Below, piece after piece: positions 45,312 through 47,483 of a stretch of DNA of 64,000 bases (position 1 is the stretch's first letter; each line of letters starts with the position of its first letter). A program made the translations under genes and the position numbers. The notes beneath the pieces are model-generated. The model saw only the letters and a program-made list of their open reading frames with translations, searched no databases and was not told the origin of the DNA. Source of the DNA: an uncultured Altererythrobacter sp. (GTDB taxonomy: Bacteria; Pseudomonadota; Alphaproteobacteria; Sphingomonadales; Sphingomonadaceae); the NCBI GenBank assembly GCA_947492235.1, contig CANLLZ010000001.1, forward strand, positions 992,001-1,056,000, written 5' to 3'.

Positions 45312-47483
45312 ATGGCTGACTTCCTCCTCGAACTCCGCAGCGAAGAGATCCCCGCCCGGATGCAGAAGGGCGCGCGCGCTGAACTGGAAAAGCTGTTCCG
45401 CCGCGAACTGGACGCTGCGGGTGTGTCCATCGGCGACGTCACCGTCTGGTCGACCCCGCGCCGTCTCGCCCTCATCGCACGCGATCTGCCTGAGCAAACC
45501 GAGGCGGTGAGCGAAGAGGCCAAGGGGCCACCCGAAGCCGCGCCCGATCAGGCCGTCGACGGGTTCTGCCGCAAGAACGGCGTCACGCGCGACCAATTGG
45601 AAGTCCGCGACGTCAAAGGCCGCCCGACCTATTTCGCGGTCATCAACAAGCCGGGGCAGGCGGTGGCCGACCTGCTCGCCGGCGCGATCCCTGCGATCAT
45701 CCGCGACTTCAGTTGGCCCAAGTCTATGCGCTGGGGCGATGCCTCGATTAGCACGGAGAGCCTGCGCTGGGTGCGGCCGTTATCGGGCATCGTCGCGCTG
45801 CTGGGCGACACCATCGTCGAATGCGAGGTGCATGGCGTCACTTCGGGCGCGGTCACGCTGGGCCACCGTTTCCACCACTCGGGGGACATCACCATCGGCG
45901 ATGCGGACGATTACGCGGTGAAATTGCGCGCGGCCCATGTGATAGTCGATCACGAGGAACGCCAGAACCTCATCCGCACGGGCGCAGCGCAGGTTGCGAC
46001 CGAGGCCGGCCTCAAACTGGTCGAGGACGAGGGGTTAGTGGTCGAGAATGCCGGCCTGACCGAATGGCCGATCCCGCTGCTCGGCCGGTTCGAGGATGAT
46101 TTCCTCGAAGTCCCACCGGAAACCATCCAGCTGACCGCCCGCGTGAACCAGAAATACTTCGTATGCGAGGATGCAGCGGGCGAACTCGCCAACGCATTCA
46201 TCTGCACCGCCAATATCGAAGGCAGCGACGGCGGCGCGGCGATTGTCGATGGCAACCGCAAAGTCCTCGCCGCCCGGCTGTCCGACGCGCGCTTCTTCTG
46301 GGATGTCGACCGCAAGAAGACGCTGGAAGAACACGCCAAGGGTCTGGAGCGGATCACCTTCCACGAGAAGCTGGGCACGGTTGCCGACAAGGTCGAGCGC
46401 GTCGCCAAGCTGGCGCGCTGGCTGGTGGAAGAGGGGATAACACAACCAACATCCGTTCGCCCTGAGCCTGTCGGAAGCGAAGCTGACGCGGAGCGTCAAC
46501 GGCAGCGACCTGCGCCCGCCAATCGTACTTCGACAAGCTCAGCACGAACGGTGGAAGAGTTGGCCGACCAAGCAGAACTCGCCGCGCGCCTGTGCAAGGC
46601 CGACCTCGTCACCGAAATGGTCGGGGAATTCCCTGAATTGCAAGGCCTTATGGGCGGCTACTACGCCCGCGCCGAGGGCCTGCCCGATGCCGTCGCCGAC
46701 GCCATCCGCGATCATTACAAGCCAGTCGGGCAGGGCGATGAAGTGCCAACTGCGCCGGTCACGGTGGCAGTGAGTTTGGCCGACAAGCTTGATACGCTCT
46801 TCGGATTTTTCGATATTGGAGAGCTACCGACAGGCTCTAAGGATCCTTTCGCGCTCCGCCGTGCGACAATCGCAATTATCCGCCTAATTGAAACCAACGA
46901 GATTCGCGTTCTTGTTAGTGAGGTCGCGCGATTTTGGAACACTGACGAGACGGTTGGGCCCGGACTTCAAGTCGAAGATTTTATGCATGATCGCCTTGGC
47001 GTTATGATGAAGGAAGCTGGCGTTCGCTATGACGTGGTGCAAGCATCCACTGAGCTCGGAACTCGGCTCGACGGCGACATCTGGCGTGTTCGGCGTCGTG
47101 CTGCTGCCCTCCAGGCCTTCATTGAAACCGACAACGGCACCAATCTTCTCGCCGGATACAAGCGGGCTGCGAACATCCTCAAGAAGGAGGAGTTCACGGC
47201 GGCTGAGGAAAAATCGCTGTCCTACACGCCCGAACCTGCCGAAAAGGCGCTGGGCGTTGCGCTCGCAGATGCAGAACCCAAAGCCGCTGCCGCTGTCGAA
47301 GCAGAAGACTTTGCCGCAGCAATGGCGGCGCTGGCCAGCTTACGGACGCCGATCGACACGTTTTTCGAAGAGGTGATTGTCAATGCCGATGAACCGGAGA
47401 AGCGCACCCACCGACTGGGCCTGCTCGCGCGGTTCCGCGATGCGGTGCACACCGTGGCCGATTTCAGCCGGATCGAAGGGTAA
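45312..47483 (+). CDS. glyS: Glycyl-tRNA synthetase beta subunit (with in-frame repeat insert)
   Basis: The tRNA-binding beta subunit partnering GlyQ. The start MADFLLELRSEEIPARMQ at 45312 is the conserved N-terminus. The body has KSMRWGDASISTESLRWVRP, ARVNQKYFVCEDAAG, ADLVTEMVGEFPELQGLMGGYYA and LADKLDTLFGFFDIGELPTGSKDPFALRR. At 723 residues it exceeds E. coli GlyS (689), and residues 381-414 are encoded by a 99 bp palindromic repeat inserted in frame just before the ADLVTEMVGEF segment. The C-terminal anticodon-binding domain is intact, so the enzyme should be functional. Confidence 0.97.
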   Translation: MADFLLELRSEEIPARMQKGARAELEKLFRRELDAAGVSIGDVTVWSTPRRLALIARDLPEQTEAVSEEAKGPPEAAPDQAVDGFCRKNGVTRDQLEVRDVKGRPTYFAVINKPGQAVADLLAGAIPAIIRDFSWPKSMRWGDASISTESLRWVRPLSGIVALLGDTIVECEVHGVTSGAVTLGHRFHHSGDITIGDADDYAVKLRAAHVIVDHEERQNLIRTGAAQVATEAGLKLVEDEGLVVENAGLTEWPIPLLGRFEDDFLEVPPETIQLTARVNQKYFVCEDAAGELANAFICTANIEGSDGGAAIVDGNRKVLAARLSDARFFWDVDRKKTLEEHAKGLERITFHEKLGTVADKVERVAKLARWLVEEGITQPTSVRPEPVGSEADAERQRQRPAPANRTSTSSARTVEELADQAELAARLCKADLVTEMVGEFPELQGLMGGYYARAEGLPDAVADAIRDHYKPVGQGDEVPTAPVTVAVSLADKLDTLFGFFDIGELPTGSKDPFALRRATIAIIRLIETNEIRVLVSEVARFWNTDETVGPGLQVEDFMHDRLGVMMKEAGVRYDVVQASTELGTRLDGDIWRVRRRAAALQAFIETDNGTNLLAGYKRAANILKKEEFTAAEEKSLSYTPEPAEKALGVALADAEPKAAAAVEAEDFAAAMAALASLRTPIDTFFEEVIVNADEPEKRTHRLGLLARFRDAVHTVADFSRIEG
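46453..46551. repeat. REP-doublet palindrome inside glyS
   Basis: The left arm CCGTTCGCCCTGAGCCTG... begins at 46453 and the inverted right arm, ending CTCAGCACGAACGG, is at 46525-46551. Total length is 99 bp, exactly 33 codons. The reading frame through both arms is the same as in carA, giving RPEPV on the left and STSSART on the right. Confidence 0.9.

Follow-up and report, generated by a model that had tools for sequence, protein, structure and literature searches.

The gene for the beta subunit of glycine--tRNA ligase (glyS) in the window, that is, the whole 64,000-nucleotide stretch of DNA analysed here, is interrupted in frame by two inverted arms of a repetitive palindrome (REP), and a similar doublet lies in carA. 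How can essential genes come to carry such DNA, and why is it read in the same frame in both? The first-pass annotation of this DNA had proposed either selection for a tolerated peptide or a frame-tolerant mobile element. The features concerned are collected in Table 1.

Table 1. REP-related features of the window (positions counted from its first letter)
Feature	Position	Strand	Remarks
carA REP doublet	10394..10477	+	84 bp, 28 codons; interdomain linker, equivalent to E. coli CarA residues 182-186
Single REP arm between glyQ and glyS	45279..45299	-	intergenic if glyS starts at MADFLLELR
glyS, glycine--tRNA ligase beta subunit	45315..47483	+	723 codons with stop from 45315; ATG just upstream
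REP doublet in frame in glyS	46453..46551	+	CCGTTCGCCCTGAGCCTGTCGG...CTTCGACAAGCTCAGCACGAACGG (CCG...CGG); 99 bp, 33 codons; head-to-head
Left REP arm core, glyS	46456..46476	+	read RPEPV; 2 mismatches to the family pattern TTCGNNCTGAGCNTGTCGAAG
Right REP arm core, glyS	46528..46548	- (inverted)	read STSSAR; 0 mismatches

The glyS doublet and its repeat family

Direct reading of the sequence confirmed the position, length and phase first reported for the glyS doublet, as well as its place just before a conserved segment, since it ends about 45 bp ahead of KADLVTEMVGEF. The claim that carA and glyS share one frame is also correct, the left arm being read RPEPV and the right arm ST(S/G)SART in both genes. 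The TIGR00211 profile matched glyS with 719.8 bits (cut-off 300) in two stretches broken at residue 373, exactly where the insert begins, and the alignments to GlyS of known structure (PDB 7yse/7eiv) are interrupted at the same residue. The segment is 36-37 codons longer than in uninserted relatives, so that the net gain is slightly more than 99 bp. The strand of the doublet has a folding z-score of -3.6, and none of 200 shuffled sequences was equally stable. In an AF2 model of GlyS (48 sequences, mean pLDDT 85), the insert is within the loop 373-412 between the helices 356-372 and 413-426, a loop equivalent to residues 379-385 of the E. coli-type GlyS (7yse), and its block pLDDT of 39-47 is that of the lowest stretch of the protein. 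Insert peptides consist of Gly, Pro, Ala and Ser to 56% and have a mean GRAVY of -0.35; the glyS insert peptide is polar and probably disordered.

The arms belong to a dispersed family. In the source genome (G000, 2.97 Mb in 3 contigs), a whole-genome search allowing at most 2 mismatches to the family pattern found 97 arms, while the reversed control pattern gave 0 matches, and a chance origin of the glyS arms can therefore be dismissed. The arm consensus is CCGTTCGNNCTGAGCYTGTCGAAGN'N'C, with a conserved 5' end (CCGTTC) and a loop of 11 nt. Of 75 distinct arms, 74 keep the variable stem bases N1N2 paired, in six combinations (CC/GG, TC/GA, TG/CA, GC/GC, CG/CG and GG/CC), and thus each arm is a maintained hairpin. 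Head-to-head (+-) order was found in 92 of 98 doublets of G000 and a second REP-rich genome of the same family (G019). The other 6 doublets of this census, 2 of them genic, have the inverted, tail-to-tail order, for example L072 (G000 C1:815780) and L260 (G019), and the same order is seen in carA of the genomes G020, G024 and G031.

About 56 REP clusters occur in G000, 50 outside genes and 6 within, the latter in carA, glyS, valS, the methylmalonyl-CoA mutase gene, truB and kynU, all of whose products score above an NCBIfam equivalog cut-off. The first-pass annotation was right about carA and glyS, and the genome holds six genic doublets, not two. Several further candidates, at surE, thiL, gcvPB, hslU and a bch-like gene (names by reading), were rejected because the repeats are located upstream of the likely start codons. 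A profile search of G000 for Y1_Tnp (PF01797) gave no match while the control genomes were positive, so mobility driven by a RAYT in G000 was dropped as an explanation; among the 25 genomes sampled from this family, only 3 had a PF01797 match.

Reading frame of the genic copies

For a list of the frames used, all REP clusters of G000 and most of those of G019 were examined, with coding potential scored on both sides, and in-frame genic clusters were 6 of 56 and 8 of 66, respectively. The + arm is read RPEPVE in 13 of these 14 doublets and FxLSLSK in the remaining one. In a virtual reading of 80 intergenic doublets, RPEPVE and FxLSLSK were open equally often (108:108, expectation 1:1), and the RPEPVE excess in genes over the expected 50% is significant (p=0.0009). 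The right arm is read STSSAR in 10 of 14 (p=0.0013), a value not independent of the left arm because the insert as a whole has to be divisible by three in length. The bias is genuine, on a basis of few genic copies (14 doublets), and neither random frames nor an absence of further genic copies, either of which would have spoken against the first proposal, was found.

The origin of this bias can be sought in the arm itself. The third + frame of the arm holds a TGA, and the FVLSLSKG frame is the sole hydrophobic one (GRAVY +1.1, against -0.5 to -2.2 in the other four). A filter for stop-free, polar peptides is sufficient for the bias, which fits a filter by tolerance; an insertion target with a preferred codon phase may be an alternative source. 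Hence the "tolerated peptide" proposed at first is a fair description of the frame excess, while a frame-selected or frame-tolerant element is not needed, because a few disordered loops repeatedly accept any resident palindrome. We regard an element selected for its frame as extremely unlikely: it would account for the prevalence of RPEPVE among the genic doublets, but the stop in one frame and the hydrophobic product of another suffice for this, no more than 6 of about 56 clusters lie within genes, the same sites hold other repeat classes with different peptides, and the equal openness of both frames in intergenic copies reveals no upkeep of one of them. Moreover, carA contains in three other genera a sister REP type (TGAGCGAAGTCGA core) that is read in an FVPSEVEG-like frame. 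Tolerance of the loop is a better account of the pattern than any property of the REP element.

The glyS loop and two further loops across Sphingomonadales

The comparison of this glyS loop covered 107 Sphingomonadales GlyS proteins, all distinct (30 from a genome search and 80 named loci, less 3 duplicates). An in-frame insert is present in 50 of them and absent from 57, and the inserts fall into about six palindromic repeat classes: the studied REP with a close variant (5 inserts), the TPAKAG/DSRLRGN class, which resembles CGTC REPs (17), the TPDLIRGP class (4), and the CCCCTCCC (10), CCCTCTCCCC (6) and GGGGAGGGGGACC (8) types, the classes being assigned by eye and the last three, G-rich ones (F4-F6) possibly being mutually related. 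Inverted repeats of at least 9 perfect bases are found in 80% of the inserts and, among control windows taken from these genes, in 9.5%, and the inserts also fold better. Pattern counts in 30 genomes showed that the classes in the loop are dispersed residents; each of the 9 genomes scored has the class of its own glyS insert as a resident (at least 4 copies, the glyS copy counted; permutation p=0.0007). In seven other families sampled, about 15-42 nt separate the glyS flanks where both could be aligned, that is, there is no insert.

On a gene tree of the 107 proteins built without the insert, its presence and absence require 32 changes, at least 18 of them forced by supported branches, and all insert classes together require 45. 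Clustering of the classes on the tree was not found, as 26 of 200 shuffles gave a number as low. Supported sisters differ in the loop, such as L032 and L099 with the CCCCTCCC and the TPDLIRGP class, respectively, L054 and L141, and L135 and L162 (present versus absent).

Two other genes of the source genome behave in the same way. Doublets occupy the carA linker in six of the genomes read, namely the studied REP in G000, the CCCCTCCC type in G002 of the same genus, the CCCTCTCCCC type in G019 and a variant REP, in inverted order, in G020, G024 and G031. One loop of truB holds at least 4 classes, with the studied REP in G000, related REPs in G013 and G024, the TPAKAG/DSRLRGN type in G004 and G017, the GGGGAGGGGGACC type in G002 and G-rich types in G008 and G031. 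All three genes, glyS, carA and truB, hold inserts both in G000 and in G002, a second species of its genus, and at none of them do the two species share a class; in G002 one and the same non-REP class, CCCCTCCC, is found in both glyS (C3:253480) and carA (C2:14988-15080). The carA linker and the truB loop are slots like the glyS loop.

Such a hotspot could also reflect a preference of the repeats for a DNA target, i.e. an insertion bias and not tolerance of the protein. In favour of it, the glyS insert, whatever its class, starts within a few codons behind EEGIV, but several unrelated classes share one site, no common sequence is apparent by eye among the sites in the three genes, glyS has additional, less used insert sites, and most copies are outside genes, so target preference appears unlikely, and we infer that tolerance selects the insertion site. 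As to the less used sites, palindromic in-frame inserts occur at about glyS reference residue 287 and at 590-611 in L112, L144, L130 and others, L112 having inserts at all three sites. A longer, lineage-specific variable segment at reference residues 496-521 (up to ~86 aa) was set aside as not palindrome-like. The glyS inserts of L130 (from ~2739, +; GGTTCGAATCCTACTCGGGAAGCCACCA) and L040 (~2616, -; GGTTCGAGTCCCTCCGGGGCCACC) resemble a tRNA T-arm and 3' end at their start, as if a flanking tRNA had been carried along, and a search for the source tRNA genes of these two fragments found none.

It is also conceivable that the inserted peptide itself is selected, as a flexible linker or an interaction or regulatory segment, with the palindromes merely a convenient source. 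The uniform composition among unrelated repeats (polar, rich in G/P/A/S) and the biased frame agree with this. However, tolerance predicts the identical composition, more than half of the GlyS proteins do without the insert, uninserted sister lineages are common, and the sequences and lengths vary widely, which makes a selected peptide very unlikely.

Considering these data, we assume, with a probability of roughly 80%, that a REP dimer sits in a tolerated glyS loop which has been refilled repeatedly, by several classes, from the palindromes resident in each lineage. The 99-bp insert is a head-to-head dimer and one copy of a dispersed, non-autonomous repeat. Resident palindromes would land widely, and genic copies would last only where the protein tolerates a stop-free, polar segment; the glyS copy, in a surface loop of the GlyRS beta subunit, may have survived owing to its length in multiples of three, the lack of a stop and its polar peptide. 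Across the family the loop has probably been filled, emptied and filled anew on many occasions, and the carA interdomain linker and the truB loop would be further permissive slots. Judged from the sequences, the glyS inserts are presumably translated and neutral.

A serious rival, possible rather than probable in our view, is that a single ancient insertion in the ancestor of the family left a dispensable stretch flanked by LAD.AE, which was overwritten by new palindromes and occasionally lost. It overlaps in confidence with the permissive slot, since refilling is one way in which such a slot could work. On their right side, insert-bearing alleles of different genera have a common flank, mostly LAD.AE with few variants, which uninserted alleles are without. 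No inserted and uninserted pair with identical flanks was found among the glyS genes, nor was a target-site duplication established; in the closest mixed pair, the near-identical genes of L135 and L162 (Sphingopyxis), the immediate flanks of the loop change with the insert, while the DNA outside is ~90% identical. The shared right flank and this change of flanks hint at one old insertion later refilled, or at exchange of a local segment, rather than at many fresh insertions. The L099 insert appears to be a hybrid, with a left arm of the TPDLIRGP class and a right arm of the PASAGVT type (PAFAG/PASAG class), which suggests recombination or nesting between repeat classes, and in L103 the REP stands directly behind a KPSP stretch of the kind usual in another class; both agree with refilling. 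On the other hand, the tree places many lineages without an insert among those with one, so that many losses would also be needed, and third-position identity is not raised in or beside the tract, giving no sign of recent exchange. Recent short-tract horizontal exchange of the slot is accordingly unsupported as well, third-position identity in the tract not exceeding that of the flanks, either for three uninserted haplotypes or for the flanks of the inserts.

Building on the permissive slots, we suggest tentatively, at somewhat below even odds, that the disordered loops of glyS, carA and truB are long-lived docking slots in which unrelated selfish palindromes replace one another throughout the family. 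If so, essential proteins carry a parasite-derived segment with rapid turnover. In-frame palindromes are usually seen as scattered accidents, and here some protein loops act as sites where selfish palindromes land time and again. The family-wide glyS data amount to a natural experiment on the peptides that are tolerated, on the movement of repeats without an enzyme and on displacement among selfish elements. They also hold a warning for annotation in Sphingomonadales, where peptides such as RPEPVEG...STGSART, TPAKAGVQ...DSRLRGND and PLPxGEG...PLSREG are repeat-derived.

Comparison with known palindromic repeats

The studied family is a REP with head-to-head dimers, being a multi-copy, dispersed, short palindrome with a compensated hairpin and a mostly extragenic location. 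Our literature searches on its core sequence and on in-frame palindromes of Sphingomonadales returned nothing, no open-access report was found of a single loop occupied by several repeat classes throughout a family or of this frame bias, and a term search of the RepRanger paper (PMC12306157) gave no passage on intragenic REPs. It resembles REPIN/RAYT systems in its paired inverted hairpins, dispersed and non-autonomous, but unlike them it resides in a genome without a PF01797 match, and it is not counted among them. It also resembles the Rickettsia palindromic elements, which are likewise in-frame palindromes in functional genes (six here) tolerated as an extra peptide, with truB a target in R. 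conorii too; unlike that case, the copies in G000 are mostly outside genes.

The closest comparison is with the GTAG and CGTC REPs, which, according to Di Nocera et al. (2013, PMC3733652), are mostly head-to-head dimers, mostly intergenic and in some cases genic and in frame. The targets named in that paper include, in Erythrobacter litoralis and Sphingopyxis alaskensis, tRNA synthetases and truB; the CGTC REPs are described there as lacking a dedicated transposase. The studied REP, with its CCGTTC end and 11-nt loop in place of a GTAG tag, or of a CGTC tag with a loop of 4-5 nt, is placed in neither superfamily because the tag is absent, while the TPAKAG/DSRLRGN class of its relatives ends in TGACG, which is CGTCA on the other strand. 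According to the same paper, recB of two Xanthomonas species holds different REPs at about one site, and recB is the exception, genes that share a functional category otherwise having their REPs at different sites. In-frame palindromes are therefore of a kind already known; compared with the REPs described in that paper, the glyS loop, the carA linker and the truB loop each hold several classes across the family, and a family-wide slot of this sort is, as far as we have found, new.
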